Of a stretch of DNA of 32,526 nt, positions 1 to 25,866 are shown one piece after another. This DNA is from a virus: the IMG/VR virus record IMGVR_UViG_3300042355_000615, positions 1-32,526 of that record; one strand, written 5' to 3'. Under the pieces are notes generated by a model. The model searched no databases, was not told where the DNA came from, and saw only the letters and a program-made list of their open reading frames with translations. Position 1 is the first letter of the stretch. Each line of letters opens with the position of its first letter. A program made the translations under genes and the position numbers.

Positions 1-780
1 GCTACGGATACTATTCCAACTAGTGATTTTTCTAGTGCTGCAATATTTAGTATTGGAGGTATTGATGGTACTAACGGTACTAACGGTACTAACGGTACTA
101 ACGGTACTAACGGTACTAACGGTACTAACGGTACTAACGGTATTAATACAGCTACTATAGCACTGTATGCTAAAAATACTAGTAGTACTGCTGCTCCAGC
201 CGCTTTTAGCGGAGATTTTACTTATACCTTTAGTACAGCAACACTAACTGGTGGTACACTTAATGGATGGAGTACTACTGCTCCTGCTATAGTTAAGGGA
301 GACTACTTATGGGTTAGATATGCTGTAGCTGCTAGTAATACTGCTACGGATACTATTCCAACTAGTGATTTTTCTAGTGCTGCAATATTTAGTATTGGAG
401 GTATTGATGGTACTAACGGTACTAACGGTACTAACGGTACTAACGGTATTAATACAGCTACTATAGCACTGTATGCTAAAAATACTAGTAGTACTGCTGC
501 TCCAGCCGCTTTTAGCGGAGATTTTACTTATACCTTTAGTACAGCAACACTAACTGGTGGTACACTTAATGGATGGAGTACTACTGCTCCTGCTATAGTT
601 AAGGGAGACTACTTATGGGTTAGATATGCTGTAGCTGCTAGTAATACTGCTACGGATACTATTCCAACTAGTGATTTTTCTAGTGCTGCAATATTTAGTA
701 TTGGAGGTATTGATGGTACTAACGGTACTAACGGTACTAACGGTACTAACGGTACTAACGGTACTAACGGTACTACCACA
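1..780 (+). repeat. Direct repeats (342 and 306 bp units) with 9-bp (Gly-Thr-Asn) tandem tracts
   Basis: The same DNA unit begins at 1, 343 and 649, the last copy being partial. By eye the non-tandem parts are identical base for base. The units differ only in the number of the 9-bp repeat ggtactaac: eight copies at 67-138, four at 409-444 and six at 715-768. All changes are multiples of nine, so the reading frame of the tail-tip protein is kept. The window starts inside a unit, so more copies may lie upstream. Confidence 0.95.
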
Positions 781-3123
781 AAAATTATATTAGTTTATAA
801 AAGATCTACTACTATTGCACCCCCTACCGTTCCTGCTACTCCTAGTGGGGGCTCTATAGATTATGCAACAGGTGCAGTAACTGCTCCAAGTGGGTGGTCA
901 ACTAGTGTTCCAACAGGTACTGGTATAGTTTATGTATCAAAAACTACTATAACTTATAATGTTACTTCCGGTACTGCAACTCTTTCAGGATGGTTAAGTG
1001 CTGTACCTAATACTCAGATTTTAGATAATGGTGCAACTTATACATATGATGAAATTAGTCATACTAGTGCATATACTCCTAATATTCAAACTATAACTAT
1101 ATATACTAAAACTTCAAATAATGGAAATATTCCTAATACTCCTTCCGGAGGACAAATAGTATTAGGAGCTATAGGTATAAAACCAACAGTAACAGTACCT
1201 ACCGGTTGGTATTTAAACAAATCTCTTCTAGAACAAGGCAATAGTACCCAGAATATAATATGGACTTCTAGTGTTACTATTGTATCTCAAAGTGATATTA
1301 CTACATATACTACCCCAGCTTGGAGTGCTCCTTTATATGAGTACATTCCTCAAGGACAGCTAGGAACTACTAGAGTATTTAGTAAAATACCAGTATTTGC
1401 TGTAGGTAACCAAGGAAAAGTATATAAATCAATTAATGGATTTGGACCAACCGGTTTTCCTACTATTACTACAGTAGGATCTAGTGGAAATACATTTTTT
1501 AGTATAGCTGCAGATACTAGTGCACAAAAAGTCTGTGTTGTAGGCAACACAAGCTCAAGTGTAGGTATAATATGGAGAAGCCTAGACGGCGGAACTACTT
1601 GGACACAAGTAACTGGTCTACCTGTAAGTACAACAAGATTTACTGATATAATATATTCAAGTGTTTTACAGTTATTTATAGTAGTAGGTAGAGGTGGTAT
1701 AATATTAACAAGTACTGATCTTATTACTTGGACACAACGAACTAGTGGAACTACTCAAGATTTAAATAAAATTGCTGTTGAAGGAGAAACGTCTGGATTA
1801 ATACATGTTGTAGGAAACAATTCTACAGTAGTTACTAGTGGGGATGCCATAAACTGGACTAGTACAACAATTTCTACTCCTGCTACTCTTGATTTACGAG
1901 ATATTACCTACAGTAAGTCTCGTCAAAGATTTTATATTGCAACTTATCAAGCTACTAATGGTGTAATAAACACAGTTTATTATTTTGAATCTATTAATAA
2001 TTATGAAACTACTACTTGGGTACAATATTCTACTGGAGTAACTGGTAATAGTAAAATTCCTAACAGTATTCAAGCAAATGCAGCCGGTACTATTTTAATT
2101 ACTACTAATTTAGGCACTGTAATTACTTCTACAGATGCAGTAAAGTGGACAGAAAGATCCTTAAGCTCAAATCAGGATCCTCTATATGGATCTACTTGTA
2201 TAGTTAATCAATTTTTTGTGAGCTCAGCAAAAGAAAGGATATATAGTAGTGTAGATGATGGAGCTACGTGGACTACTCCTTTCTTTACTTATTTTGGTAC
2301 CATTAACATATTGAATATATCAACACCTTTTGTAACTCCAGGAAACCTTGGAACTGTACCCTCTACTACAGATATATTTAATGTATTTAATAGGTATACC
2401 CCTCAAAAGGGAGATATAGTTGTAATTGCTTATTCAAACGAATATGCAGCTACACAATATGATGGCACTAATTGGACAACTACAGATAAGTTTATACAAG
2501 GTAACTTAGTAGTAGATGGTACTATTACTACTAATCATTTAGCTGCAAATAGTATATCAAGTGCTAAAATCATAGCTGAAGCTATTACAACTGAAAAGTT
2601 AGCTGCAAATAGTATAACTGCTAATAAAATTGTAGCAAATGAAATTACTGTAGATAAAATAAATAGTAATAGTTTAAATGTTACCTCAGGAGCAAAATAT
2701 CATACTACTAATATAGGTAGTCAAATACCTTTTGATACAACTGGTTTTGATTATTATTCAGTAGGTTATGTAAACGCAACAACTCTTGGAAATACAAGAT
2801 GCATAGTTACATTTACAGTAAGTTTACATTCACAAAGTTCATCAACTCCTTCTACTTTTTTTGCAAGAGTATTTCGCGATAGATATGGAGCCACTTTTCC
2901 AGTAGTTATGTCTCCTCAATATCTTTATTGGGACGCTTATACTAATGGAGTACCTACAGGTCTTAGAGGCATATCTTTTACAGTTACTGTTATTGATTTT
3001 GTAACAGAGGCAGGATATCACGAATGGGATTTAGAAATTCTTAAAGTTAATGATGGTAATGCCTTATACAATGCTTCTTATAGTTATTGGATAACAGAAT
3101 TACGAGCCGAAAAATATGTATGA
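1..3123 (+). CDS. Tail-tip / host-specificity fibre protein, C-terminal part (5' end outside the window)
   Basis: Frame 1 reads open from the first base to the TGA at 3121-3123, at least 1040 residues, so the true start lies upstream; the GTG at 2218 is internal. Seen in order: about 102-residue modules joined by (Gly-Thr-Asn)n collagen-like tracts (1-780); two diverged copies of the same module type with PATPSGG and PxGWST signatures (780-1340); a region with five Asp-box/BNR-like motifs such as SLDGGTTW and SVDDGATW (about 1573-2271), suggesting a beta-propeller; a fibre segment of LAANSI/TANKIVANEI repeats (about 2510-2670); and a C-terminal beta-rich domain. The LAANSI-type repeats and Tyr-X-Lys/PSGG modules are typical of lambda J-like central tail fibres. 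It probably contacts the host receptor. A tail-chaperone-like gene follows, overlapping it by 8 bp. The role is inferred from domain style, not from a recognised full-length homologue. Confidence 0.85.
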   Translation, partial: ATDTIPTSDFSSAAIFSIGGIDGTNGTNGTNGTNGTNGTNGTNGTNGINTATIALYAKNTSSTAAPAAFSGDFTYTFSTATLTGGTLNGWSTTAPAIVKGDYLWVRYAVAASNTATDTIPTSDFSSAAIFSIGGIDGTNGTNGTNGTNGINTATIALYAKNTSSTAAPAAFSGDFTYTFSTATLTGGTLNGWSTTAPAIVKGDYLWVRYAVAASNTATDTIPTSDFSSAAIFSIGGIDGTNGTNGTNGTNGTNGTNGTTTKIILVYKRSTTIAPPTVPATPSGGSIDYATGAVTAPSGWSTSVPTGTGIVYVSKTTITYNVTSGTATLSGWLSAVPNTQILDNGATYTYDEISHTSAYTPNIQTITIYTKTSNNGNIPNTPSGGQIVLGAIGIKPTVTVPTGWYLNKSLLEQGNSTQNIIWTSSVTIVSQSDITTYTTPAWSAPLYEYIPQGQLGTTRVFSKIPVFAVGNQGKVYKSINGFGPTGFPTITTVGSSGNTFFSIAADTSAQKVCVVGNTSSSVGIIWRSLDGGTTWTQVTGLPVSTTRFTDIIYSSVLQLFIVVGRGGIILTSTDLITWTQRTSGTTQDLNKIAVEGETSGLIHVVGNNSTVVTSGDAINWTSTTISTPATLDLRDITYSKSRQRFYIATYQATNGVINTVYYFESINNYETTTWVQYSTGVTGNSKIPNSIQANAAGTILITTNLGTVITSTDAVKWTERSLSSNQDPLYGSTCIVNQFFVSSAKERIYSSVDDGATWTTPFFTYFGTINILNISTPFVTPGNLGTVPSTTDIFNVFNRYTPQKGDIVVIAYSNEYAATQYDGTNWTTTDKFIQGNLVVDGTITTNHLAANSISSAKIIAEAITTEKLAANSITANKIVANEITVDKINSNSLNVTSGAKYHTTNIGSQIPFDTTGFDYYSVGYVNATTLGNTRCIVTFTVSLHSQSSSTPSTFFARVFRDRYGATFPVVMSPQYLYWDAYTNGVPTGLRGISFTVTVIDFVTEAGYHEWDLEILKVNDGNALYNASYSYWITELRAEKYV

Positions 3124-3598
3124 TACACCTATAAAAAAATTTACTATATATAATAAATTAACTGGAGAAATAACAGGATTAATTGCAGCTTCTGAATTTT
3201 TAGTAAGTATGAGAGTACAACGAGATCCAAATTTAGAATTTATAGAAGGAGAGTTCTCTCCTGAAATTTATTATTTTAAAAATAATCAATTAGAAGAATA
3301 TACTGAAGAACAAAAAACTAAAAAACAAATACCTCCTGCTCCATTATTTATAGGAACATGGAGTAATGAAACTATGGAATGGATGCCTATACAAGATATA
3401 ACCACATTAAGTCAAGGTATTGTATTAGAGCGTAATAAACTTCTATCAGATACTGATTGGACAGACACTTTATCTGCTAAAAGTAGATTAGGGGAAGACT
3501 TATATAACCAATGGCAAATATATCGTCAACAATTGCGAGATATTACTAATCAACCAAATTACCCTTATCAAGTAACGTGGCCAAATGCTCCTAGTTAG
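3116..3598 (+). CDS. Tail assembly chaperone-like protein (Phage_tail_APC type), copy 1
   Basis: 160 residues. The C-terminal 60 residues carry LLSDTDWTD, then YRQQLRDIT and a final VTWPNAPS, the signature of the Phage_tail_APC family (Pfam PF16778: R..LL..tDW ... YRqaLRdi ... WP). The N-terminal part is a small variable domain with no motif I recognise. The start overlaps the end of the tail-tip gene by 8 bp, suggesting translational coupling. Genes of this family usually sit directly behind tail-fibre genes and are thought to help fibre folding or attachment. A second gene with the same C-terminal domain lies at 19092-19550. A terminator follows 2 bp after the stop. Confidence 0.8.
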   Translation: MYDTPIKKFTIYNKLTGEITGLIAASEFLVSMRVQRDPNLEFIEGEFSPEIYYFKNNQLEEYTEEQKTKKQIPPAPLFIGTWSNETMEWMPIQDITTLSQGIVLERNKLLSDTDWTDTLSAKSRLGEDLYNQWQIYRQQLRDITNQPNYPYQVTWPNAPS

Positions 3599-3600: not shown

Positions 3601-3637
3601 AAAAATACCCGACCCTAAACCAGGGCGGGTATTTTTT
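3601..3637 (+). terminator. Rho-independent terminator after the tail-tip operon
   Basis: A G/C-rich hairpin has arms 3601-3616 and 3622-3636, one bulged A (3612) and a 5-base loop, followed by a T-run. It lies 2 bp after the stop of the chaperone-like gene and just before a promoter, so it separates the upstream structural operon from the fibre operon. The A-run on the left side could let it act on both strands. Confidence 0.88.
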
Positions 3638-3640
3638 ACA

Positions 3641-3669
3641 TTGACAACTTTATGCTCTTGTGTTACAAT
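3641..3669 (+). promoter_or_regulatory. Near-consensus sigma70 promoter with extended -10
   Basis: TTGACA at 3641-3646 matches the -35 consensus exactly. After a 17-bp spacer, TACAAT at 3664-3669 differs from TATAAT at one base and is preceded by TGT, an extended -10. Transcription would start near 3676, about 75 nt before the coding region at 3751. It reads into the fibre and lysis genes. It is the only promoter in the window that I can support this well. Confidence 0.82.
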
Positions 3670-3671
3670 AG

Positions 3672-3750
3672 TTGAAAATGTCCGTTTCAAAACTAAAATT
3701 TTCAAGGAGCCAAACCTTTTAGGCTACTGCACGGAAAGAAAGGGTAAAGA
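3672..3750 (+). promoter_or_regulatory. Leader with alternative inverted repeats
   Basis: Just downstream of the promoter, TTGAAAAT (3672-3679) can pair with ATTTTCAA (3698-3705), or its first six bases can pair with TTTCAA (3685-3690); the two pairings exclude each other. The first arm spans the expected start site, so it could instead be an operator. A weaker short stem, AGCC/GGCT, follows at about 3709-3726. A purine-rich stretch (gaaagaaaggg) precedes the start codon at 3751. No known riboswitch class was recognised. Confidence 0.4.
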
Positions 3751-4104
3751 ATGTTAGAAATATCAGAACAAGTCATTCAAGTCTTGGGCCTTATTGCTAT
3801 AGCCGTTGTAGCCGCATTTTTTGGCATCCAGCAGCTAATAAAAAATTGGAAAGCAACTCAAGCAGAGTCGGGAATTATACAAATTATGCACCGAGAGCTA
3901 GAGCGAATGGGTGAGCAGAATACTAAACTAAGCCTAGAGCTTGGTAGACTACACGAGCAGATTATAGCCCTGAACAGGGAACTAGAAAAGCTTACACTCG
4001 AAAACCAACGCTTACAGGTTGAGGTAGTTGCACTAACAAATGAAGTCGGTATATTTAAACGACTAGCAAAACAAGGAGCATACCTAGATGCAACAACCAG
4101 CTAA
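3751..4104 (+). CDS. Small membrane-anchored coiled-coil protein
   Basis: 117 residues. Residues 8-30 form one hydrophobic segment (VIQVLGLIAIAVVAAFFGI). From about residue 45 to 105 there is a heptad pattern of Leu and Ile in a Glu/Lys-rich helix (LSLELGRLHEQ, LEKLTLENQRLQVEV), a leucine-zipper-like coiled coil. This predicts an inner-membrane protein with an oligomerising helical domain. It is the first gene after the promoter and overlaps the next gene by 17 bp. It resembles small membrane/coil proteins found near phage lysis or tail genes, but I do not recognise a family. Spanin-like or superinfection-exclusion roles are possible and unproven. Confidence 0.75.
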   Translation: MLEISEQVIQVLGLIAIAVVAAFFGIQQLIKNWKATQAESGIIQIMHRELERMGEQNTKLSLELGRLHEQIIALNRELEKLTLENQRLQVEVVALTNEVGIFKRLAKQGAYLDATTS

Positions 4105-4687
4105 AATTAATTATAAAGTGTATCAGGGTGCAACCTTTCAAGAAATTTATCGTTGGGAATCGCAAACAAAAGTTTACACACCCATCTCACAAATTTCTCG
4201 GAGTGCGCCTTGTGTAATAACTACAACTACTGCATCAAACATTCCCATTGGCTGGCGATTTCGTGTGGCCGGTGCGGGTGGAATGAAAGAGATTAATAGT
4301 GTGGGTGAGGATAATTGGTATATAGCTACTGGGGTTAGTGGTACGCAAATTACCATAAATCAGGTAAATAGTTTGAGTTATACTCAGTACACCAGTGGCG
4401 GAGTAGTAGAGTATAATGACTGGGTTGGACTAAACAATCTTACAGCACGTATGCAAATTCGTGAAACTGTTGAAAGTCCTGCCATAATATATCAGTGCGG
4501 AACCCAAACCGGTGAAATTGTCCTTGATCAAGTCTACAAAACAATTACTATAACTATTCCTGCCGGCATAACCGAAGATTTTACTTTTGAAACTGCTGTA
4601 TATTCTGTAGAATTAGTAGATCAACAAGGTAGAGTAACTCCTTTCTTAACAGGTAATTTAGTACTAGTTAAGGAGGTAACCCGATGA
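4088..4687 (+). CDS. Conserved phage structural protein of the YxGxTF...TARMQIR type
   Basis: 199 residues, beta-strand-rich, with no signal peptide or membrane segment. The order of motifs, YQGATFQEIYRW near the N terminus, LTARMQIRETVE, then GEIVLDQVYKTITITI, VYSVELVDQQGRVTPFLTG and a terminal KEVTR, matches a small family often found in tailed phages near baseplate or fibre genes and usually annotated only as hypothetical or structural. About 70 residues (roughly 38-110) appear inserted between the YxGxTF strand and the RMQIR strand. The start overlaps the upstream gene and the stop overlaps the next start (ATGA). A virion-surface or baseplate adaptor role is an inference. Confidence 0.72.
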   Translation: MQQPAKINYKVYQGATFQEIYRWESQTKVYTPISQISRSAPCVITTTTASNIPIGWRFRVAGAGGMKEINSVGEDNWYIATGVSGTQITINQVNSLSYTQYTSGGVVEYNDWVGLNNLTARMQIRETVESPAIIYQCGTQTGEIVLDQVYKTITITIPAGITEDFTFETAVYSVELVDQQGRVTPFLTGNLVLVKEVTR

Positions 4688-4950
4688 CAACTACAGTAGT
4701 CGTAGATAAAAATACTACAGTAACTATACGGGAACAAACAGTAAATACTGTAGTTGTACGAGACCAAACTCCCAGAACTGTTATAACCGGTATAATGGGG
4801 CCTCCTGGAAAAACTACAGTAAGTGGCCTAGAAGATGTTGATGTAACCTCTTTAAATCCCGGAAGTATACTAGTATACAATACACAAACTCAAAAATGGA
4901 TTTCAACTACCTTGCTGAATCAACAAACAGTTGATTCAGGCCAATATTAA
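4684..4950 (+). CDS. Short conserved phage structural protein with GPPG motif
   Basis: 88 residues. The Val/Thr-rich N-terminal half ([24 protein letters not shown]) leads to [13 protein letters not shown], a single collagen-like turn. The C-terminal half, [16 protein letters not shown] then [11 protein letters not shown], matches a segment repeatedly found in phage fibre and appendage proteins. It is probably a small virion adaptor made together with the preceding protein: the genes share ATGA, and the start has a perfect Shine-Dalgarno (aaggaggt, about 4670-4677). Its function is unknown. Confidence 0.75.
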
Positions 4951-4961
4951 AAGGGACAAAA

Positions 4962-6383
4962 ATGGCTTCTATTATTAGAATTAAACGTTCAGAGGTAGCT
5001 GGAAATCCAAGTGTTCTAGCTGCAGGCGAAATGGCCTACTCTGGATTAGTTAATAACGATTCAAATGGCGGTGACCGCCTATACATTGGTATGGGTAACG
5101 AAAATAATGGTAACGCTGTTAATCACGTAGTAATTGGTGGTAAATACTTTACTGACCTACTAGATCATACACGTGGTACACTAACAGCTAGTTCTGCCAT
5201 TATCGTTGATGCAAATAAAAAGATCAATGAACTACTAGTAGATAATATTACAATAGATGGTAATAGCATCACTAGCACTGATAGCAATGGTAATATAAAT
5301 ATTACTCCAGACGGTACCGGTATTACCATAATTAAAAATATTTATACCGATGCCAGCACTAGTCTTGCTGAGTATATCTACGACACTGTAGGTGGAGCAA
5401 TTACTGCTGGTACAGGTATTACTGTAACTAATAGTGATCCCGGTAATACTAGTACAATTAGTATCACTGCTACTGGCGTAACAGCTGGAAGTTACGGTTC
5501 TCAAACTGCAATACCTGTACTTACCGTTAATGCACAAGGTCAAATTACTAGTGTTAATACTGAAAATATTGCCACTAACCTAAATATTGCTGGCGGTACA
5601 GGTACTGATGCGGTTGCACTACTCACTGATACCTTAACATTTACAGGCGGTACTGGCGTTACTACTGCAGTTACTAATAATACAGTAACTATTAGCATAG
5701 GTCAAGCTGTTGGTACTACCAGTGATGTAACGTTTAATAATGTTACAGTAAATGGTCAATTAAGCAGTGATGATATTACAGCTGCAAATATTAGTGTAGC
5801 AGGTAATGCTACTATTACTGGTAATCTTACTGTTCAAGGTACTACTACCACTGTAAATAGTACGGCCGTTGCAATTACAGATATTAACATTGAACTAGCC
5901 AAAGATGCTACAACTGCTGCTCAAGCTAATGGTGCTGGTTTAACAGTAACAGGAGCTGGTGCAACACTTACTTATACCAGTGCAGATGATCGCTGGAATT
6001 TAAACAAAAACTTAGTAGTTACAGAAGTTATTGGTAATAGTGCTACAACTACTAAATGGAAAACAGCCCGCGACTTAAGCCTAACTGGTGATGCTACTGC
6101 TACTCTAGTAGGCGTAGATGGTAGTGCTGCAGTAAGCGCTGCAATTACCCTAGCTACTGTTAATGCAAATGTTGGTAGTTTTGGCGATGGTTACACAGTA
6201 CCTACAGTAACAGTTAATGCCAAAGGCTTAGTAACTGCAGTAACCACAACAGCAATTCCAACTGCAACTGCAGCAGCAACTAGCGGTGCAGCTACACTAG
6301 GCTTAGCAAAATTTAATAGTGCAAACTTTACAGTTGACAGTGGCTGGGTAACTATAAGTGTAGTTGAAGGCGGAAGTTATTAA
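4962..6383 (+). CDS. Phage fibre/structural protein, cyanophage-like modular type (473 aa)
   Basis: 473 residues, Thr/Asn/Ala/Gly-rich and beta-strand-rich. The N terminus, [20 protein letters not shown] followed by DRLYIGMG, is the entry domain common in cyanophage and T4-like fibre proteins (xIRxKRSxVxG ... LxxGExA). Middle repeats such as [20 protein letters not shown] and [17 protein letters not shown] follow, then [11 protein letters not shown]. That last module recurs in the next gene (about 8840-9110). The C terminus repeats [14 protein letters not shown] strands. It is likely a trimeric fibre or sheath of an appendage. A ribosome-binding site (aaaagggac) lies before the ATG. No catalytic motif was seen. 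Confidence 0.8.
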
Positions 6384-6392
6384 AAGGTAGTT

Positions 6393-6408
6393 TTTTAACT
6401 ACTAGTAC
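6393..6408 (+). other. Short hairpin between two fibre genes
   Basis: In the 46-bp gap between the two fibre genes, GTAGTT and AACTAC flank four T bases, a perfect 6-bp stem. There is no clean T-run after it, so I do not call a terminator. It could be an RNA processing or stability element. Positions are approximate by a few bases. Confidence 0.3.
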
Positions 6409-6429
6409 AAGTCCTTTTTAGGAAACACT

Positions 6430-9400
6430 ATGGCTAGATTAATACTTAAAAAATCAGCGGTTATTACCGATGGTGCACCAAAACAACCTGCGCCAGGCGA
6501 CCTTGAGTACGGTGAGCTTGCCCTTAACTATGCAGTTGGTACACTCTACTACAAAAAATCTGATAATACAATTGGTGCTATTGGCGCAGGTGCTTCACCT
6601 GGCAACGGCACCCTGACACTCCAGGCTCAGGCGGGCCTAACTAACACTAGTGTTTCCATTGGTACAGGTACAGGATTTAGTGCTAATACTGCAACTAATA
6701 CAACCTATCAAGTTAATGTTGGTCCAGCACTAAGCGCACTAGCCGGCACCATGACAGGTGCAGGTAGTGGCTTTTTACGCAAGTCGGGTGCTGATACTTA
6801 TGAGGTAGATACTAATACGTACGCTACTGCAAGTAGTTTAGTTAATTACTTGCCGCTTGCTGGTGGCACCATGACTGGTGCTATTAATATGAGTGGGACC
6901 CAAACTCTTACCCTTGCTGGTTTTGCGGGTATTGAGTACTACAATACTGCTGGTACTTGGGAAGTCTATATTGGTACTGAAAATAACACCGGCAATGTAC
7001 GGTATAATTCTAGACAGGGTACACATACTTGGTATGCAAATGGAACTTCTATAGGTTCTTTAGCCTCAACAGGTCTTAGTATTGCTGGAACCTTAACTTT
7101 ACAAGGTAATAGACTAGGTATTAAAAATACTGCTATTACCGCTGGCATAGACAGCGTAGCAGGATGGGCTTACGACAGCACATTTAGTGTTGCTAATCCA
7201 GTTGATATATTCTTTAAACCAGACGGTTTAATAATGTATCTAGCGTTTGGTACTTCAATTACCCAGTATAATTTGTCAGTTGCATGGGATATCACCACAG
7301 CAGTAGCAGGCTCAACATTTTCAATGTCACTAATTGACGTTAGTACATTAGGATTGTTTATTAGTCCAGATGGTACTAAGATGATAACCTCTGGTAACAG
7401 TGGAGTTGTTATTGCCAACGGTTCAGGTGTTGCAGGCGAAGATAGAGCTTACTATTTTACCTTAGGTACACCTTGGGATGTAAGCACCGCAACATTAGTA
7501 AGTTCAATACGATTTGCCATAGGTGATGCAGGTGGTATTCCAGCAGCAATGACTGCACCACAGGCGGTAGACTTTAAGAATGATGGTACAATAATGTACA
7601 TCATAGATTCAACTACTGATGCTGTGCATCAGTTTGCGTTGAGTTCGGCATATAATGTTGCAACGGCAACCTGGACTAAACAATTTAGTGTTAGTGGCCA
7701 AGAAAGCGGCCCAACTGGTCTGAGATTTAACACTGCTGGTACACGCATGTACGTATACGGTAGTACCGGAGACGACGTAAATGAATATAGATTGGGCACA
7801 GCGTGGGACATTGCCACTGCTGTATTTTATGATAAATTCTACACAGGTTGGTTTGAACCTACTCCAACCGGTATATACATTAACGAATCTGCTAACGTAG
7901 CATTCTTATGCGGATCTAGTGGTGATGTAGTATTAAAATTCCGCACAGATCGTCAGGCAGTAGAGATTGACGCAGAAACTACTACCAGTAAAATTGAACT
8001 TGCTGGCAACACGAGAGTTACAAATAACTTTTACGTTAACGGACGTACAGTACTTGAAGGTCGAGTTGACACCCTTGGAGATCTTGTTATCGGGGGTGAT
8101 ATTACAGTTCTTGGTAATGATTTAGTTGTTGGTTCTGCTACGAGTAGTGCGACATTATTCTCTGGATTAACGTCGGGTGCTTTAAGCATCGCTACCAGCG
8201 AAACAACTGGTGCAATTACTGTAGGCGGAACAGCAGCCACTGGTGTAATCACCGTCGGTCAGTCCACAGTTAATCAGACTTTAAACTTATCATCGGGTGC
8301 TACTACCGCAGTTTCGACTAAAGTTATTAATATTGGTACCGCCGGTCTTGCAGGTTCGACTAGTACAATTAACATCGGATCAACAGTTTCGGGAGCACTG
8401 GGTGTTACTACAATAGGTGGAACACAAACTATAATTAGTTCTACTACTTCTGCTGTTTCAACTACTACTGGTGCGCTACGGGTAACTGGTGGAGTGGGTA
8501 TTGGTGGAAATTTACATGTTGGCGAAACTATAACTTCAGGTGGTGGCACCTTAACTGGTGATTTAATTATTAATTCATCAGGATTAGCAACTAGTCCAGC
8601 TTTACGAATTAACCTATCAGATTCTGGTAGTGCATTCTTACATGCTCAAGAATCTATTGCAGCAAATTTAACTGCTGATCAATCAATAATACATGTATTA
8701 GGAGTAGCAGCTAGTACAAAAAATGCTGGATATATTGGTTATAAGTACAGTGGTACTGCTGGTTCTAATAATAATTTATTAACATTTGGACATTGGGGTT
8801 CCGATCATCTAATGACATTAGATGGGGGCGGTAATTTAATTATTACAGGCAATTTAACTGTTAATGGTACAACTACCACAATTAATTCAACCACAGTAGC
8901 TATTGATGACCTAAACCTACAACTAGCCACAGATGCGCCTACAGCAGCTGCAGCAAATGGTGCAGGTATTAGTATTGGTGGTGCAGGTGCAACCTTTACC
9001 TATACCAGCGCTGATGATCGCTGGAACTTAAATAAGAATCTTAATGTTGGTACAGTATATGGTGCACTAAGTGGTAATGCTACAACTGCTACTACACTTC
9101 AAACTGCTAGAAATATTAATGGTACTAGTTTTAATGGAAGTGCTAATATTACTACAGCCAATTGGGGTACTGCTAGAGATATTACAATAGGCGGAACTTC
9201 TAGGTCTGTAAATGGTAGTGCTGCCGTTACTTGGTCTATTGCAGATCTAGTATTGCCCGATGGAGCTGAAAGAACTAAGCAATGGGTAGTTGCTGCAAAC
9301 GGAGCACAGGGACGTCGACATACAATCGGTAGAGTATACGGTACTCCAAACCATTGGATAAATACGTGGCAAAATATTCGTATAAAAATAGTTCAAGAAG

Positions 9401-11778
9401 ATTGGAGTAGTGGATACGTAGACTACAATTTGTTTGGTTACTACGGAATGGGTAACGGAACTAGTTGGATATTACGACTAAAAGATGCTGATGGAGTAAA
9501 TACTGGTTATTTTAGAGTTAGTTTAGGTACAGTAACTTATGCTGGTTGGCAATACTCTGGTCAAAATACGTATTATCAAGATGTTTATATTGATGTAGAT
9601 TATTATACAACAGTTCGTGTAACCGCAACAACATATGGGCATAGCTATCAAAGTACAAATCCTACGGATGGAACCAGTGGGTGTTATACAGTTTTTTATG
9701 ACAGTCCTAGTGCAGCAGATATAGCTTATGTTAACGACGATAAGTCAAGCACTTATCATTTTGGCGATAAAATTCTAAATGCTGCAAACTACAACAGTTA
9801 TAGCCCAACCCTAACAGGCGGAAGTGCGTCGGGTACTTGGGATATAAGTATAAGTGGCAATGCTGCTACAGCTAATGCTCTAAATACCGGAAACAACTAT
9901 ACAGGTAATCAATTTACAGCAAGTAGTTCTAATGGATATTTTTTTGCGAACAGAAGTGTAATAGCCAATCAAGCAGGTATTCAATTCCAGACTGCCGGAA
10001 CTACAAATTGGTGGAATTTCCTAGACAATAATTCAAATATTCTCGCTTGGTACCAATCAAATACTAATACGCAGGTAATGACTCTTACTCAAGCAGGAGT
10101 TCTTAATGTTATTGGAGGAATTACTCAAAATAGCAATCAGGTACTACATGCTGGCAACTACAACAGCTATAGTCCAACCCTAACAGGTACGGGAGCTAGT
10201 GGTACTTGGGGTATAAATATTACAGGAAATGCTGGTAGTGCTAACATTCTTGGAACTACGCGTTTAATAAACGGTACAAGCTTTAACGGTTCAGCTAACA
10301 TTGATACAACTGAATGGTATCACTCAGATCGTGACTTTCCAAACGGTACATTAATTACTACAAATATTAACTACGCAGTTAGTGAGGGGGATCCCTTTGT
10401 TCTTGAAATTCGTGGTAACAGCTACGGAAATATTATACCGTTAGACTTGGTATATCAGGGTTATATCTATGCCGACACGATTATTAACCACGGCGGTATT
10501 TCCAATGGATTTAATATTACTGGTCTTGTTGCAATTAACAACGGCGGCAACTTATGTTTCTGGTTTCCAAGTCAAGGATATTGGAACGGATACAACGTAA
10601 AGGTTTATTCAGCTTACGCAACACGAGCTACAAATCGTGTTACTTCAATTACTGGTGTAGCAAAACCTACTACAGCAAAAGAAGTTGCGCTTTCTGCTAA
10701 TATTCGTCAGTCTTTACATAGTGGCAACTACAACAGTTACAGCCCAACCCTAACAGGCGGTGGAGCGTCAGGTACCTGGGGTATTAATATAACTGGTAGT
10801 GCTGGTAGTGCTGGTAGTGTTCCCTGGTCTGGCATAACGAGCATACCGGCATTATGGTATCAGTCTGGTTCGTGGCTTGGAGATCTAGGATCTAATGGAT
10901 TTACACGCGAAAATGGCGTGTCAATGACTGGTGGGGCTGAGTTTGTTTTACTTTCAAACGGTGGTCGAGGGTATACTCTAGTCGATGGCTCTTACTATGC
11001 ATATGAAAACGGAGGATTTTTTTCCTCAAATAACTCTGCTTATGGTACCTTACTTGGTTTTTATGCAGATACAACAACTTCACTTAATTTTAATACAACT
11101 AGTGTAAAACTAAGTGGTAATCAAATTCTACATGCTGGTAATTACACAAACTATACTGTTCCTATATCGCACACACATTCTTTTGATAGTTTAACCAGTA
11201 AAACTGGTGGTACTGGCGACTACATGACTACCGGTAGTTTTATTGCTCAAAATATTTTACGAGTTCAAAATGGTGGGGCAGATTGGGACTCTCTTGATCT
11301 TAATGCAGATGGTGCAACACACTATATCAATGCACGCGGAGCTGAAACTGGCTTAGAATTTCAGTTTGATGGTGTTACTAGGATGTCGTTGTCAAACGCA
11401 GGATCCTTAAACTTACCTAATGGTGGACTTACTGCTCTTACTAAGTCATTTCTTATCCCACACCCAACCAAGCCCGGCAAAAAGTTACGTTATGGATCGC
11501 TTGAAGGTCCAGAAAATGGCGTGTATGTTCGCGGCAGGCTGCAGGGTACAGATTGTATTCAACTACCTGAGTATTGGACTGAACTAGTAGACCCGGATAG
11601 TATAACCGTACAACTTACTTGTCGCGGCAAACCGCAGCAACTATATATTCGTGAAGTCCGGAACAACTGTATGTGGGTTGACATAGACGGAGCTTGGGCT
11701 GCAGACATAGACTGCTACTACTTTGTACAAGCAGAGCGTAAGGATGTAGCTAAGTTGGAGGTAGAGGTAGAAGAATGA
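6430..11778 (+). CDS. Giant modular tail fibre protein (1782 aa) with beta-propeller insert and conserved C-terminal domain
   Basis: 1782 residues. Seen in order: an N-terminal fibre domain (ARLILKKSAVITDG ... LEYGELALNY) shared with many phage fibres; glycine-rich repeats (PLAGGTMTGAINMSG); a propeller-like region at residues about 240-515 with repeated xxPDGxxMY...WDITTA units; a Ser/Thr/Gly triplet region; the [24 protein letters not shown] module (about 800-890); three HAGNYNSYSPTLTGGGASG-type modules; and a C-terminal domain with KSFLIPHPTKPGKKLRYGSL, then EGPENGVYVRG, ending in YYFVQAERKDV. That last domain is known from the ends of cyanophage-type fibres and may serve trimerisation or folding. 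It is probably the long tail fibre. The stop overlaps the next start (ATGA). Confidence 0.85.
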   Translation: MARLILKKSAVITDGAPKQPAPGDLEYGELALNYAVGTLYYKKSDNTIGAIGAGASPGNGTLTLQAQAGLTNTSVSIGTGTGFSANTATNTTYQVNVGPALSALAGTMTGAGSGFLRKSGADTYEVDTNTYATASSLVNYLPLAGGTMTGAINMSGTQTLTLAGFAGIEYYNTAGTWEVYIGTENNTGNVRYNSRQGTHTWYANGTSIGSLASTGLSIAGTLTLQGNRLGIKNTAITAGIDSVAGWAYDSTFSVANPVDIFFKPDGLIMYLAFGTSITQYNLSVAWDITTAVAGSTFSMSLIDVSTLGLFISPDGTKMITSGNSGVVIANGSGVAGEDRAYYFTLGTPWDVSTATLVSSIRFAIGDAGGIPAAMTAPQAVDFKNDGTIMYIIDSTTDAVHQFALSSAYNVATATWTKQFSVSGQESGPTGLRFNTAGTRMYVYGSTGDDVNEYRLGTAWDIATAVFYDKFYTGWFEPTPTGIYINESANVAFLCGSSGDVVLKFRTDRQAVEIDAETTTSKIELAGNTRVTNNFYVNGRTVLEGRVDTLGDLVIGGDITVLGNDLVVGSATSSATLFSGLTSGALSIATSETTGAITVGGTAATGVITVGQSTVNQTLNLSSGATTAVSTKVINIGTAGLAGSTSTINIGSTVSGALGVTTIGGTQTIISSTTSAVSTTTGALRVTGGVGIGGNLHVGETITSGGGTLTGDLIINSSGLATSPALRINLSDSGSAFLHAQESIAANLTADQSIIHVLGVAASTKNAGYIGYKYSGTAGSNNNLLTFGHWGSDHLMTLDGGGNLIITGNLTVNGTTTTINSTTVAIDDLNLQLATDAPTAAAANGAGISIGGAGATFTYTSADDRWNLNKNLNVGTVYGALSGNATTATTLQTARNINGTSFNGSANITTANWGTARDITIGGTSRSVNGSAAVTWSIADLVLPDGAERTKQWVVAANGAQGRRHTIGRVYGTPNHWINTWQNIRIKIVQEDWSSGYVDYNLFGYYGMGNGTSWILRLKDADGVNTGYFRVSLGTVTYAGWQYSGQNTYYQDVYIDVDYYTTVRVTATTYGHSYQSTNPTDGTSGCYTVFYDSPSAADIAYVNDDKSSTYHFGDKILNAANYNSYSPTLTGGSASGTWDISISGNAATANALNTGNNYTGNQFTASSSNGYFFANRSVIANQAGIQFQTAGTTNWWNFLDNNSNILAWYQSNTNTQVMTLTQAGVLNVIGGITQNSNQVLHAGNYNSYSPTLTGTGASGTWGINITGNAGSANILGTTRLINGTSFNGSANIDTTEWYHSDRDFPNGTLITTNINYAVSEGDPFVLEIRGNSYGNIIPLDLVYQGYIYADTIINHGGISNGFNITGLVAINNGGNLCFWFPSQGYWNGYNVKVYSAYATRATNRVTSITGVAKPTTAKEVALSANIRQSLHSGNYNSYSPTLTGGGASGTWGINITGSAGSAGSVPWSGITSIPALWYQSGSWLGDLGSNGFTRENGVSMTGGAEFVLLSNGGRGYTLVDGSYYAYENGGFFSSNNSAYGTLLGFYADTTTSLNFNTTSVKLSGNQILHAGNYTNYTVPISHTHSFDSLTSKTGGTGDYMTTGSFIAQNILRVQNGGADWDSLDLNADGATHYINARGAETGLEFQFDGVTRMSLSNAGSLNLPNGGLTALTKSFLIPHPTKPGKKLRYGSLEGPENGVYVRGRLQGTDCIQLPEYWTELVDPDSITVQLTCRGKPQQLYIREVRNNCMWVDIDGAWAADIDCYYFVQAERKDVAKLEVEVEE
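7150..7975 (+). repeat. Beta-propeller-like repeat block inside the giant fibre
   Basis: Within the 1782-residue fibre, four to five units share a pattern: FKPDGLIMY, ISPDGTKMI, FKNDGTIMY, FNTAGTRMY and INESANVAF, each followed by a variable stretch and, in four of them, WDITTA, WDVSTA, YNVATA or WDIATA. The spacing is about 45-60 residues. It resembles the blades of lactonase/WD-like propellers. The neighbouring parts of the fibre lack this pattern. Confidence 0.7.
9780..10800 (+). repeat. HAGNYNSYSPTLTG...GTWGI modules in the giant fibre
   Basis: Three copies of an about 85-bp coding module start near 9781, 10148 and 10722, conserved in DNA as well as protein. Related copies occur in the second large fibre near 16681 and 17557. 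The copy at 10722-10798 and the copy at 17557-17632 differ by only a handful of bases by eye, mostly in third codon positions. Confidence 0.75.
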
Positions 11779-11987
11779 AAACTATACAACATAATGTAAA
11801 TGGTATAGCAATCTATGAGTCTATAGAAGAAGATCAAGACTATGCTTCACCAGAATTAGTTACTAAAAGAATAAAAATATGCAATTTATGCGAATTTTTA
11901 GACAACGATAAGTGTTCAAAATGCTCTTGTCTAGTTCAACATAGAACTAAGTATATAGATATACACTGCCCAGAAGGAAAATGGTAA
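11775..11987 (+). CDS. Small Cys-rich, probably zinc-binding protein
   Basis: 70 residues with C36-x2-C39, C47-x2-C50-x-C52 and C65 in the ending HCPEGKW. This arrangement fits a small zinc-ribbon-like phage family that ends in CPxGKW and is often encoded beside fibre or adhesin genes. The start shares ATGA with the giant fibre stop, and the stop shares bases with the start of the following gene, so all three are probably translated together. That coupling suggests a role in making or assembling the flanking adhesins, but the biochemical role is unknown. No signal peptide was seen. Confidence 0.75.
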   Translation: MKTIQHNVNGIAIYESIEEDQDYASPELVTKRIKICNLCEFLDNDKCSKCSCLVQHRTKYIDIHCPEGKW

Positions 11988-12547
11988 TGGGAGTTATTTA
12001 TAATATAGCGCCAAAAATTGTTACATATTCTGATGTTAATGCTATCTATTTAGTAGGTGCAACTATATTATCACAGGATGAAGAAAATGATGGCTATTCT
12101 ATGATGATTCAACATAATACTGGAAGTAGTTGTGATTCTACTGGAGTTTTTGTTCAACTTAAAGATACTATTCCTTGGACTAGAATATCTGCAGAATTTT
12201 GGACTAAAGGTGCTGCAGCATGTTGGACATATATGGAACCTGGTGGATATGGCTCTTCAAATGGTGATGGAAATATTTACAATTATGATGAATCTGCCGG
12301 AGATAAATGCATTAGAACATATTTAGCACAAGATGAAGCGCAATTTGTAACACATTACAAAGCATCTGCGTGTGATAATGATGCAAATAACTTTATGCGG
12401 TACAATACAACTACATATAGAAAATGTACATTTGTTCGTCGCAGAAATGTTAATGGCAATTTAGGTGGAATTCATCATGGTAGGGCATGTAGTGAAGTTG
12501 GATCAAATGCTATTACCGTAATAAAAAACATAAGAATATGGAGATAA
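11987..12547 (+). CDS. Cys-containing putative tail adhesin (186 aa)
   Basis: Two in-frame ATGs exist (11981 and 11987). I choose 11987: it lies 9 bases after AAGGA and forms a TAATG overlap with the upstream stop. The protein is beta-rich and soluble, with six cysteines spread along it (SSCDSTG, ACWTY, DKCIRT, SACDND, RKCTFV, RACSEV) and the ending VIKNIRIWR, which looks like the last strand of a jelly-roll fold. I recognise no family. Its place among fibres, and an AT-rich composition shared with the following gene, suggest a receptor-binding accessory protein. The partner may be the zinc-binding protein just upstream. Confidence 0.65.
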   Translation: MGVIYNIAPKIVTYSDVNAIYLVGATILSQDEENDGYSMMIQHNTGSSCDSTGVFVQLKDTIPWTRISAEFWTKGAAACWTYMEPGGYGSSNGDGNIYNYDESAGDKCIRTYLAQDEAQFVTHYKASACDNDANNFMRYNTTTYRKCTFVRRRNVNGNLGGIHHGRACSEVGSNAITVIKNIRIWR

Positions 12548-12548
12548 T

Positions 12549-13757
12549 ATGGCACTTATACACTCTCCTCAAATAGTTACCAATGGTTTAGTTTTTTATT
12601 ATGACATACAAAATACTCAAAAATCATGGTTAGGTCAGCCTACAACTAATCTTGTTGGCGATGGTATGAGTATTTATAATAATGTATCAGGAGATGTTAG
12701 TGCCTCTTTAACAACTACTGGCGAATACTATAAAGGAGCAACAGTTTATAAATTAACACTAACTCCTACAACTGCTAGTGGTGTTAGTTGGTTGTCAAAT
12801 GCAAATAATCCTGGCATTGGTGTAGTAAGTGGAGGAGGAGGAGGTACTGCAAATCGATATACAGGTCACTCTATATTCTTTAAATCTACAGTACCGCTAG
12901 CAAGTACACCAATATATACTCATTATTCAAATATAGCCGGTTGGCAAAGCAGTAGTAATAATTATGCTATGGGTGATGGCTGGTATAAGGCACATGTTAT
13001 ATGGTATGATACTGTAACAAGAAGTGATGGAAAATACTGGGCTATAAATCCACTATCTGCTACATTAAACGTTCCCATAGTTATATATTGGGCTGGGCCT
13101 TTTAAAGAAGACAGAAATAATTCTACCTTTGTTGCTCAATATACTCCAAGTTCTCGTTCTAATACACAAGCTGTATTAGATTTAACCGGTCAAAGTACAA
13201 TTACTGCACAAAGCTTGACTTATAATACGGACGGTACTTTTAGTTTTAATGGTAGCAATTATATTAATAGCTCTTTAAGTAATATATCTAATTTTACAGT
13301 TGAAATAGCATTTAAATCAGATAGTGTTGAGAATTATAGAAATCCCATTGATTGCAATTGGTTAAGATTTAATGGTTCATATAGTAATATTGGTCCTAGA
13401 TTAGAACAAAATAGTTCAGGTACTTTAGTTTGGTTAATTGGTGATACTTCGGGTAATTATGATACTAGAACTGTCGTTACTTCAGGTTTAAATCAAGCAG
13501 CAACACATGTAGCAACAATTGTAAAAGATAATTTGAACTATACATCATATTATAATGGAACGCAAGTTCAAACTGGAACAGCAGCATATACTTGGCCAGG
13601 AAATTTTAATGACATACAAATAGGTAGAGGATTCTCGACATCTAGTGAAAGATGGTTTATTGGAAAAATTTATTATGTTAGAATTTATAACCGAGGATTA
13701 ACAGCTAGTGAAGTCCTACAAAACTTTGCTGCACAACGGGGGTTATACGGAATATGA
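12549..13757 (+). CDS. LamG/concanavalin-like lectin-fold virion protein, copy 1 (402 aa)
   Basis: 402 residues. The N-terminal SPQIVTNGLVFYYD and the C-terminal half from about residue 225 (GTFSFNGSNYINSS ... FTVEIAFKSD ... IQIGRG ... YYVRIYNRGLTASEVLQNF) follow the pattern of LamG/concanavalin-A-like jelly-roll domains; the ending YNRxLTxxEVxQNFxAxRxxYGI is characteristic of phage versions. A separate beta-rich domain occupies about 40-200. It probably binds glycans on the host surface. Its stop shares ATGA with the next gene, a clear paralogue with the same ends but a different middle. It appears richer in A+T than that neighbour. Confidence 0.8.
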   Translation: MALIHSPQIVTNGLVFYYDIQNTQKSWLGQPTTNLVGDGMSIYNNVSGDVSASLTTTGEYYKGATVYKLTLTPTTASGVSWLSNANNPGIGVVSGGGGGTANRYTGHSIFFKSTVPLASTPIYTHYSNIAGWQSSSNNYAMGDGWYKAHVIWYDTVTRSDGKYWAINPLSATLNVPIVIYWAGPFKEDRNNSTFVAQYTPSSRSNTQAVLDLTGQSTITAQSLTYNTDGTFSFNGSNYINSSLSNISNFTVEIAFKSDSVENYRNPIDCNWLRFNGSYSNIGPRLEQNSSGTLVWLIGDTSGNYDTRTVVTSGLNQAATHVATIVKDNLNYTSYYNGTQVQTGTAAYTWPGNFNDIQIGRGFSTSSERWFIGKIYYVRIYNRGLTASEVLQNFAAQRGLYGI

Positions 13758-14833
13758 GTGTATATAACGGACCCCAAATCGTAACAAGTGGACTAATTGC
13801 TGCCATTGATGCTAGCAATATTAAATCTATGATGGGTACGGGCCCCGAAAGAATACAGAGTACATACTCTAGCTTTAATAACTGGAATGGTCTAGTAGGA
13901 ACTAGTGGCTCGTATGTTAGTAAAACAGGAAAAACTGGTGTTACCCTAACGATTACTAATAGCAATGGCGGCGGAGTTAATTGGTGGAATAGTAATCATT
14001 CAGTTACAGCCTGCACTCCAAGTGTTCCGTATATAGTAACTGCTAGAGTTCGTTGGCAAACAAACACACCCAACCCTAATCTATTCTATATTCGCCAGTA
14101 CAATTCTAGTGGATCTCAGATTTCGGAGTACGGTATATTTTCGTCTAGCAATATAGTAGACTTAGGCGACGGCTTTTACTTTACTTGGGCATATTTTACC
14201 ACAGGCTCAACAGCTGCTAGTTTTATAGTACACGGGTATGATTATAGCAATATAAGTATCTGGCTAGAGGATGTACAGTGTAAGCGAGCAGGCTTAGAGG
14301 ATTTAGTTGCTGGTACTTACCCTGCTCCTATGTTTGGTACAATGACTTGGTCGCCTAGTAATGGTGGAAAACTTAGCTATAGTGCTGGAAATAATCTTCA
14401 GATTACTAATCTAAATTTAGCTAGTAGTAGTTATACAGTAGTATCTGCAGCCAGATATACTGGGGGTACTCGTGGCAGAATAGTTAATGGAATAAATAAC
14501 AACTGGTTAATTGGTCACTGGAACACTACTACAGAAAATTACTATGCAGAGGGCTGGGTTAGCGGAGTAGGAGCAGGAGCAAGCGACACCAACTGGCGAA
14601 TACATGCAGCAACTTGGAATACCGGTACAGATAGTGCTAGCCTGTACGTAAATGGTAATTTAGTGGCTGGACCTAATGCTAATGCAAGTGCTGGGCCTAA
14701 CGGTATAGGTGTCGGCACAAACGGCGAATACTCAGATGCAGAATTTTCATTTGTGTATGCGTATAACCGAGTACTAACGGACGCAGAGATACAAACAATT
14801 TTTTATGCTGAACGTGCCAGATTTGGCATATAA
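13754..14833 (+). CDS. LamG/concanavalin-like lectin-fold virion protein, copy 2 (359 aa)
   Basis: 359 residues. The start YNGPQIVTSGLIAAID and the ending FVYAYNRVLTDAEIQTIFYA then ARFGI parallel the upstream protein, so the two arose by duplication or came from one pool. The middle includes a carbohydrate-binding-like stretch (VNWWNSNHSVTACTPSVPY; FYIRQYNSSGSQISEYG) and a C-terminal jelly roll (SLYVNGNLVAGPN, IGVGTNGEYSDAEF). The role is probably host glycan binding, inferred from the fold. It is coupled to the upstream gene by ATGA. Its codon use is less A/T-skewed than the upstream copy, suggesting separate origins. Confidence 0.78.
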   Translation: MSVYNGPQIVTSGLIAAIDASNIKSMMGTGPERIQSTYSSFNNWNGLVGTSGSYVSKTGKTGVTLTITNSNGGGVNWWNSNHSVTACTPSVPYIVTARVRWQTNTPNPNLFYIRQYNSSGSQISEYGIFSSSNIVDLGDGFYFTWAYFTTGSTAASFIVHGYDYSNISIWLEDVQCKRAGLEDLVAGTYPAPMFGTMTWSPSNGGKLSYSAGNNLQITNLNLASSSYTVVSAARYTGGTRGRIVNGINNNWLIGHWNTTTENYYAEGWVSGVGAGASDTNWRIHAATWNTGTDSASLYVNGNLVAGPNANASAGPNGIGVGTNGEYSDAEFSFVYAYNRVLTDAEIQTIFYAERARFGI

Positions 14834-14850
14834 AATAATAGGAACTAATT

Positions 14851-17800
14851 ATGGCCTTGTCTGACAAAAATATTTTAATTACCCCTAATCGGAGTCAAAC
14901 TGCCGACCCTAAAATTGAGTTTGTTGGAGCAAGCAGCACACTAGGCCCACAAACAATTACCCTACGTGTGTATCCAACTAGTAGTGGAACTATTAGCTTG
15001 GAGGGTAGCGCCGGTCAGCTATTTAGCGTAACTAATACATTAACTGGAACTATTTATAGTGTAAATGATGTGTCGGGAATTCCCAGCATAGAAGTATTAG
15101 ATACCGGACTGGTTAAGTTTGCACAGTATAGTGGTAATGTACTAGTTGGTACAGGTATTGATGACGGTAGTAAATTACAAGTACGTGGAAATTTACGAGC
15201 CGGAGTCAACGGTTGGAATAGTTCGCCTGCCAGTACTACATTTCCTCATACCTTAGCTGCAACTACTGGTAGTAGTAGAGTTGTAAACTTTGATGGTAAT
15301 GGTAACAGCACACCGTCAGTATGGTGGACTAATGGTTCTAGAGCTCTAGGTGCTATTGATGCACAAGATCCTGGTCTTACCTTCTGGGCTAATAATGGTT
15401 CTAGTTGGCAAAAGCAAATAAGTCTTGGATACGGCACTGTAAATATTGAGACTGTGCTACAACAAGGCGGCAATCAGGTACTACATGCTGGAAACTATAG
15501 TAGCTATGCACTACCACTAAGTGGTGGTACTGTTACAGGTAACACGCGTATTAATCAGTTAGGTGTTGGTAGTTCCAACAATGCTAATTTTGATTTTTAT
15601 AATAATGGTTCCAGCTACTTTAATGGTTCAGTTACTATAGACGATAATTTAACAATAACTCCTACTTCTAATCAATCTCTTTCAGTACAACATAATGGTA
15701 CTGGTACTGCTTGGTTTGGTCGAATTGTATCAAGAAATTCTAGTATGGATAAGGCTGCCTTTCTTGGCACCTATGGCGGAGTTGCTGGTGTATTTGCTCA
15801 TAATGATGCACTTGGTGCTTGGGCACCTCTATATATTAATACCATTGATAGCGGCGCAGCAAACGGCACAGGGCAAGCAGTAATATTTTCGCGACTTCAA
15901 CTAGATGCTGATGGTACCGACTCGTGGTACAGAGCAGGTAGTGGTAATCGGCACAGATTTACAACTACTGGAGGTGCCGATTTTATTATTGGTAACGGTA
16001 GTGGTGTTGTAACTATAAACGGCAATCAAGTACTACACGCTGATAATTATAGTAGCTATGCGGTTCCTTTAACTGGCGGAACAATGACAGGTAGACTTAC
16101 CACTACTGCTTGGACTACTAGTGCTCGTAACTATTCAAACGAGTGGATTGAATTTCCAAACCATAGTGGACTGTACTCTGGATTAAATGCTGCTCATTTT
16201 TATCCAAATAATTCTAGTTATGGTAGTTGGAGAAGTGCTGGATCGCGTAATGGTTGGGGCGGTATAGAGTTTGATGCTAGTAATGGCAATGTATCCCTAA
16301 TGATTAATACAGACTCAAATACATCAGGATTTCATAATAACAGCTATGGCTGGCAATGGCGGTGGAACAATGGTACTGCATATGTACACAAAAATTCGTA
16401 CGGAGGCGGTACAGCTGCTGCAGTTCTTGATAGCTCAAACTACACCAACTACACACTACCACTAGGTGGAGGAAATTTAACTGGGCGACTAATAGTAAGT
16501 GTAAATGGTCGTGGTACAAGTTACAGCCAATCAAATATTGAGGTTTATACTACTGATAACACACCACCAGGCTTATCCTTTCATCGTGGTGGATATAGCG
16601 CAACTACACTATATGAAAACGATGGTGAACTGTACACAAACCCTTGGACTACTAGGGGTCAAACTGGTAAACTTCTTGCTGCCGGCAACTATAATAACTA
16701 TGCACCCACCCTAACAGGTGGCGGAGCATCAGGAACTTGGAGTATAAGTATTACCGGTAGTGCAGCTAGTGCTAGTAATGCGGGATATGCTAATAGTGCA
16801 GGCAGTGCTGCCAGCGTTGCAGCATCTGCAATTACTGGTCAGGTTGGTATGTGGACAAGTGCCGCTCGTCCAGGCCCCTACCGCCTATACCGCCGTGAAG
16901 ATGATACTAATTACAGTGTGCAAACTCACTGGACTGGTAGTTATTGGAGGTTGTATGGTTATAGTGGAGATAGTGCACATGCTGATACCCATGTAGGTTA
17001 TGCAGACAGTGCAGGTACAGTTACTAATATTTCGTCATCTCAAGTTGCCCCCATTGTTATCTATACTACACCAAGTGATGCTAGCGGATATATATGGATT
17101 AGGTTTAATTATGCTAACGGTAACACTTTCAATTCTGGCCAACACCAGATAGAGTTCTATGTAACTCGCTCAATCAACGAGAATAGCAATAGCCCATATG
17201 GTGGTTGCACTGCAAAGTTCACCGCTCAAGCTCGCGAATGGCACAGCGGTCAAGAAATGATGGTTGTGCAATATGGAGAGCATGGTGCAAATGCAAGTTT
17301 TGGGCAAGGCTTTTACATTTCTAACGCTCGTATTGCGGATCTTGCTGGTAATGGTAACTGGGTTTACCTTCGAGTTAGAGCTGGTATTACCTACTACTTT
17401 AGAGAAGCTCTTCATGGCGGCACTGGTTGTGATTTCAGTACTCTACAAGGAACAACCGATCCCGGCTCGACACAGCCAATCTTTGCCGGATTTAATTTGA
17501 TTTCAACTTCTGGCGACGTCAACTTCTACGACAATGGTAATGCTGTACTACACGCCGGTAACTACACTAGCTATAGTCCAACCCTAACAGGCGGTGGAGC
17601 GTCGGGTACTTGGGGCATCAATATAACTGGTACAGCAAGTGATCCTAGTAAGGTACCACTAACCGGCGGCACAATGACCGGCACCTTGTTTATTAATAGT
17701 AAACTACGAGTTAATACGGCCAGCGGCCCAAGCGATAATGCATATGGAACGGCAACAGACATACCCATGTATATGTTTGGTAGTACTCGTACTCAATCAA

Positions 17801-19091: not shown

Positions 19092-19550
19092 ATGATATAT
19101 GTAAAATTAAATAGTAATGGTGAAATTGAAAAATACCCTTATAATCTGTACGATTTAAGAGTAGATTTTCCTAATACATCGTTTACTATTCCTGTAGAAG
19201 AAAGTTCTCTGAATAGTAGAGGTATTTTTAGGGTAGCAGAAAGCGTAATGCCACAGATTGATCATACTAAAGAATTAGTTGAATTACAACCAACTCTACA
19301 AAACGGAACTTGGACAAGGGTTTGGAGTGTAGTAGATGCACTTCCAGAACACATTCAAACTAAATTTGATACTGCTGCATACGACATAAGAAAACGTAGA
19401 AATGAACTACTTTCAAGCACAGATTGGACACAAGTAGCAGACACCCCTGTAGATAAACAAACATGGGCAACGTATAGACAAGCTCTTAGAAATATTACCA
19501 CACAATCAAACTTTCCTTGGTCAGTAGAATGGCCAACCCAACCCGTATAA
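19092..19550 (+). CDS. Tail assembly chaperone-like protein (Phage_tail_APC type), copy 2
   Basis: 152 residues. The C-terminal part reads RRNELLSSTDWTQVADTPVD, then WATYRQALRNITTQSNF and SVEWPTQPV, a close match to the Phage_tail_APC pattern (PF16778) and to the end of the protein at 3116-3598. The N-terminal half (MIYVKLNSNGEIEKYPYN) is the usual variable domain of this family. It follows the second fibre and adhesin and has a clear ribosome-binding site (aaggaaa). Each chaperone-like copy therefore closes one fibre group, and copy 2 probably serves the fibre encoded before it. That pairing is an inference. Confidence 0.82.
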   Translation: MIYVKLNSNGEIEKYPYNLYDLRVDFPNTSFTIPVEESSLNSRGIFRVAESVMPQIDHTKELVELQPTLQNGTWTRVWSVVDALPEHIQTKFDTAAYDIRKRRNELLSSTDWTQVADTPVDKQTWATYRQALRNITTQSNFPWSVEWPTQPV

Positions 19551-22138: not shown

Positions 22139-22148
22139 GGGGAGTAGT

Positions 22149-22667: not shown

Positions 22668-22675
22668 GAGACGCA

Positions 22676-23990: not shown

Positions 23991-23992
23991 CG

Positions 23993-24935: not shown

Positions 24936-24937
24936 CC

Positions 24938-25865: not shown

Positions 25866-25866
25866 A

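Follow-up and report, generated by a model that had tools for sequence, protein, structure and literature searches.

A recently duplicated module array on Gly-Thr-Asn linkers in the exchangeable tail-tip fibre slot of an uncultured phage

Results

The repeat array at the start of the contig

The window, i.e. the whole stretch of DNA analysed here (32,526 nt), is the complete IMG/VR 'linear' record IMGVR_UViG_3300042355_000615; it is thus an entire contig, and position 1 is a contig end. It opens with linker tracts and modules that share a single reading frame within the ORF at 1-3123, followed by a gene for a tail fibre assembly chaperone (Table 1). The first-pass annotation described three identical units carrying eight, four and six copies of GGTACTAAC, an observation that is confirmed in part: the tract counts hold, but there are only two full units, plus a truncated leading end. 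The 270-bp parts between the tracts, also said to be identical in DNA, are so without exception, all 18 linker units use the codons GGT ACT AAC, and the 66 nt 5' of each tract have the same letters in all three cases. After the third tract the repeat is left, and GGTACTACCACA... opens a diverged module of the same family (64% DNA and 36% amino acid identity to copies A and B). The Gly-X-Y period is uninterrupted over 10, 6 and 8 triplets, respectively: GID-(GTN)8-GIN, GID-(GTN)4-GIN and GID-(GTN)6-GTT. Chance low complexity as the origin of the repeats was set aside, given that TRF scores the 306-nt period at 1305 and the three 9-nt tracts at 153, 81 and 122.

Table 1 Features of the fibre locus and other annotated genes of the window
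Feature	Position	Strand	Evidence
Contig-start 127-mer	1-127	+	Identical to 649-775 letter for letter; a branch vertex in the k=127 assembly graph
Central tail-tip fibre gene (probable), 5'-truncated, C-terminal 1040 aa	1-3123	+	5' end of ORF open; right flank collinear with G004; weak matches to Collagen and PHROG tail
Linker tract (GGTACTAAC)8, Gly-Thr-Asn	67-138	+	TRF and repeat comparison
Module copy A, 270 nt / 90 aa, predicted beta-sandwich	139-408	+	100% identity to 445-714; AlphaFold2 pLDDT 93.2
Linker tract (GGTACTAAC)4	409-444	+	TRF and repeat comparison
Module copy B	445-714	+	100% identity to copy A over 270 nt
Linker tract (GGTACTAAC)6	715-768	+	TRF and repeat comparison
Third, diverged module of the same family	781-1035	+	Iterated HMM, residues 261-345
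Region like the PB4 straight-fibre spike domain	2347-2589	+	PF24168, 21.5 bits, E 1.3e-4, below cut-off 27
Tail fibre assembly chaperone, in swapped cassette	3116-3598	+	PF16778, E 1.2e-14
Right border of swapped cassette	3601		Near-identity with G003/G004/G009 starts here
PhoH gene	25176-25865
Periplasmic-binding-protein-like gene	30038-31054	-	PF12849, E 1.4e-32
Class II aldolase/adducin-like gene	31684-32331	-	PF00596, E 2.3e-29

Identity of the gene

Relatives of the window phage were found via its ribonucleotide reductase gene (26743-28704); the longest contigs, about 98 kb, are G003, G004 and G009. In G004, the slot corresponding to the window ORF holds a complete fibre gene of 1503 aa immediately downstream of the gene for a tail-tip hub protein that has NlpC/P60 and gpJ-FNIII domains, and the same order, fibre gene after hub gene, is found in G009, L138, L140-L142 and L144. 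By its collinear right flank, the window fibre gene would follow a hub gene as well. The sibling allele in G004 matches PB4_spike (PF24168) with 55 bits; the match of the window fibre, below the cut-off, comes from the C-terminal part alone, the N-terminal part of the gene being absent from the contig. Together with the Gly-X-Y triplets, the weak Collagen and PHROG tail matches and the module fold with its match to a tip attachment protein J (see below), these results bear out the earlier proposal of a tail-tip protein with collagen-like tracts. Because the PF01391 Collagen match reaches 22.2 bits, below the gathering cut-off of 27.2, it is the Gly-X-Y period that suggests a triple helix in the linkers.

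The hub protein of L142 is 79% identical to that of G004, and its fibre gene begins with an N-terminus like that of G004 and then reads GGTACTAACGGTACTAACGGTACT at the contig end; the missing upstream part of the window gene may resemble this arrangement. G017 was considered as the other half of the L142 phage and rejected, as the fibre gene of G017 is complete and differs. No relative of the hub protein turned up in bacterial genomes. A blastn search of 1-3123 against 50,697 phage records gave no match, and tblastn of the window fibre yielded only a weak one, of residues 547-627 to Caulobacter phage KSC.

The products of 3116-3598 and 19092-19550 have similar C-termini, ...YRQQLRDITNQPNYPYQVTWPNAPS and ...YRQALRNITTQSNFPWSVEWPTQPV, and each is encoded soon after a fibre or structural gene; of this pair, the Pfam tail assembly chaperone assignment covers the product of 3116-3598. 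No chaperone ORF of this kind follows the fibre gene in G009 or G004.

The module family

The module is predicted by AlphaFold2, from a 28-sequence alignment, to fold into the beta-sandwich given in Table 1, whereas single-sequence folding of 450 residues gave a pLDDT of 32. The model matches a viral 'Tip attachment protein J' in BFVD (entry A0A6J5KN60; E 1.8e-7, TM 0.83, 49% identity), and by both predicted fold and sequence family the module belongs with the C-terminal modules of lambda gpJ-type proteins. Among solved structures, VIA-align gave as the best, although weak, match the straight fibre of DT57C (Z 6.4, 77 residues, 3.3 A), a likeness that is suggestive at most; Foldseek against the PDB found no significant match, and the module sequence matched no Pfam family and no PDB sequence.

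An alignment of six modules was too diverse to scan the collection with; an iterated HMM detected 60 module copies, spread over 20 ORFs in the loci examined and alternating with short, often Gly-rich linkers. GTN linkers occur elsewhere in L002, L007/L009/L161, L167 and L020. Adjacent modules in these 20 ORFs mostly show 59-72% DNA identity, and only those of the window array reach 100%. This difference upholds the earlier view that duplication or conversion was very recent: with no differences in 270 nt, the duplication or last conversion would date to less than about 1% divergence. The other near-identical pairs, in L020 (99%; minus strand, ORF from 1043) and L167 (97% DNA; ORF from 5944), both lie two modules apart in an A-B-A-like pattern, suggestive of duplication of module pairs. 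The family (alignment A2), which is without a Pfam match, could help to annotate many tail-tip proteins.

Exchange of the fibre slot between near-identical phages

Compared with G004 and G009, the window is 99.03% identical over 3601-8534 and 96.4% identical over 21545-32526, but left of 3601 there is no similarity to G003, G004 or G009. Thus, despite 99% identity immediately downstream, the fibre of these relatives is an entirely different one. It too is a repeat array: the sibling allele (G003, G004, G009 and L138) consists of modules with 10-aa units, NAVTADKINA and relatives, varying in number and order. The fibre allele with NAVTADKI(N/S)A / NAVTAAKIEA decapeptide arrays, unrelated to that of the window, was recorded in L130:10993-15504, L131:1-2918 and L132:15479-17812, and the G009 genome contig opens inside it. 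A third kind of fibre, with an Ala-rich repeat, is present in L141, L144 and G012, and G007, of the same phage group, has different genes at the slot.

The fibre gene has 4512 nt in G004, and 2334 and 2916 nt flanking the contig break in G009. The G009 fibre is the same as that of G004 at both ends and contains at least 738 nt more, i.e. an extra module of ~0.8 kb with a unit order and substitutions that G004 lacks. This comparison is the best available evidence for apparent module gain or loss in near-identical phages, although the contig break adjoins the extra module, which could reflect a population mixture.

A second large fibre/structural block, window 8535-17700, has almost no counterpart in G004/G009, and both sides of it are 90-99% identical. 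Exchange of host-recognition genes thus appears to involve more than one block.

Contig ends and the limits of assembly

The caveat that the repeats might be an artefact of the contig edge proved decisive. The longest exact repeat of the contig prefix, 1-127 versus 649-775, ends at exactly 127 nt and no further; 127 is also the largest k of a published JGI metaSPAdes set (33, 55, 77, 99, 127; PMC10604447), with which the window record was presumably assembled, so that the contig starts at an assembly-graph branch. In the k=127 graph built from the contig, the junctions 1/649 and 322/628 each have two successors, and the junction 103/409 has two predecessors. When arrays were simulated, the 1/649 k-mer formed a branch for the array as printed and for longer arrays alike; were the array as printed directly preceded by unique sequence, it would be a coincidence for divergence to set in immediately ahead of base 1, as it would have to. 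The stretch 103-448 / 409-754 is identical over 346 nt, much longer than k, and therefore no k-mer connects one tract to the next, whereas every tract (36-72 nt) is shorter than 127 nt, such that each tract length is supported together with its flanks. The assembly thus supports the tract lengths but not the number and order of modules.

Contigs of relatives behave similarly. The first 127 nt of G003 and the last 127 nt of L138 each match G009 over exactly 127 nt, the L174 contig begins at the start of a shared 177-nt repeat, and contigs end inside the fibre gene in G009, L138, L140-L142 and L144. A receptor-binding gene is thus left unclosed by short-read assembly and cut in several metagenomes, partly at exact k-mer branches, so that tip-fibre variation in uncultured phages is likely under-counted.

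Discussion

Does the array change in length?

Taken together, the window array is real and recently duplicated, in a known kind of protein and in a slot that near-identical phages swap and that changes length, while the copy pattern as assembled is limited by the assembly. We consider it probable that the array is part of a trimeric central tail-tip fibre, the receptor-binding tip of a long-tailed phage of the lambda gpJ / T5 pb4 type, built of beta-sandwich modules on Gly-Thr-Asn linkers, which arose by recent duplication, whose linkers change by slippage or unequal recombination, and which is longer than assembled or variable. Globular modules of ~90 residues would be strung on short collagen-like linkers, and unequal recombination, with either identical modules or identical tracts as partners, would have duplicated the modules. 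The unit number of the linkers would shift, by slippage or unequal recombination, in 9-nt steps of three codons, so that the frame is never lost. The real array would be longer than assembled or vary in the population, and the contig may stop at a k-mer branch for this reason. At a helix rise of 0.29 nm per residue, as in collagen (PMC3368898), linkers of 24, 12 and 18 residues would measure, if triple-helical, about 7, 3.5 and 5 nm. Changes in the array would alter the length of the stalk and how many domains it presents to the host surface, with the C-terminal part of the fibre probably carrying the distal tip. Unequal recombination and slippage are the likely causes of array change; by extension, array length may affect host recognition and host range in this phage. 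If it does vary within populations, it would offer simple host-range exploration without loss of frame.

For in-frame length variation, as proposed in the first-pass annotation, the extra module in the G009 sibling allele provides indirect support. No second copy of the window array was found in protein and DNA-pattern scans of IMG/VR, and hence variation of this array itself was not observed. L161 and L162, the single near-identical pair with a GTN-linked fibre, come from two samples; their fibre genes are identical, tract numbers included. Overall, the earlier interpretation is partly supported.

The identical modules and codons require only recent duplication, and near-identical module pairs are present in other phages (L020 and L167); they would be compatible with neutral turnover, whereby unequal crossing-over and conversion keep the modules identical and the tract number drifts with no effect on adsorption. 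However, two unrelated alleles of one phage lineage share the repeat-array design, and exchange of the whole slot while the flank is still 99% identical is what selection on host recognition would be expected to produce; we regard neutral turnover as unlikely, although it deserves some weight. Nearly the same, if slightly less, can be said for an assembly chimera, in which the 8-4-6 pattern would exist in no single genome, strains that differ in tract number (4 or 8) having been threaded into one path through the k=127 repeat graph, and the real module number would be lower or higher. The start of the contig at a graph branch, the tracts unlinked by any k-mer and the breaks of relatives' contigs in the same gene speak for such a chimera. 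However, the junction k-mers demand that a tract lead into a module and the same module end into another tract, so there must be at least one real module with a tract on either side, and multi-module arrays of the family lie inside contigs L007/L161, L020 and L167.

The agreement between L161 and L162 would also fit repeats that are fixed-length structural spacers tuned to one host envelope, their identity stemming from a single recent duplication. The extra module of G009 relative to G004 and the contig breaks in the fibre gene across several metagenomes argue against fixed spacers, which we consider improbable. Variation by a diversity-generating retroelement was set aside, as the module copies are identical rather than adenine-mutated. 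Beyond the reading that we prefer, a recently duplicated tip-fibre array with changing linkers, it is conceivable, if rather doubtful, that the tail-tip slot is a site of standing variation in this ~98-kb phage lineage, with repeat arrays as alleles whose module and linker numbers change fast within a population and produce tips of many lengths at once.

Relation to known fibres

Phage receptor-binding proteins that are collagen-linked and vary in their tracts are already known. The straight fibre of DT57C is a central trimer anchored to the hub (PMC10713586), and T5 / DT57C pb4 resembles the window fibre in its slot after a gpJ-like hub gene (as seen in the relatives), in the PF24168 match of the sibling allele and in the likeness of the module to a DT57C domain; the window fibre differs in its module arrays and collagen-like linkers and in its own PF24168 score of 21.5 against a cut-off of 27 bits. 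Lambda-type protein J shares the fold and sequence of the module, and in L002 window-type modules with GTN linkers stand at the end of a J-like protein; however, hub and fibre are two separate genes in the relatives of the window, and DNA-identical modules are unusual. Antireceptors of Streptococcus thermophilus phages, from a different host group, have collagen-like repeats between domains (PMC5601072), and the type is defined by a variable region close to these repeats that determines host range. EPclA and EPclB of E. coli O157:H7 prophages are trimeric collagen fibres whose lengths vary by multiples of three residues (PMC3368898); they have collagen domains in phage fibres in common with the window protein but other flanking domains, and are described as tail fibre or spike proteins rather than tip modules. 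In ORF8 of Guarani virophage, an 81-nt deletion in collagen-like repeats was selected on a new host (PMC7242381), although this is a virophage of giant viruses and not a tail protein.

Modules of the window's family also occur in 27 near-identical Vibrio phage records (L155, Vibrio phage D445), with six modules in one large protein annotated as hypothetical, and this group is a possible isolate system for module arrays. Elsewhere in the window, the periplasmic-binding-protein-like and aldolase/adducin-like genes are possible auxiliary metabolic genes, judging by their Pfam matches.
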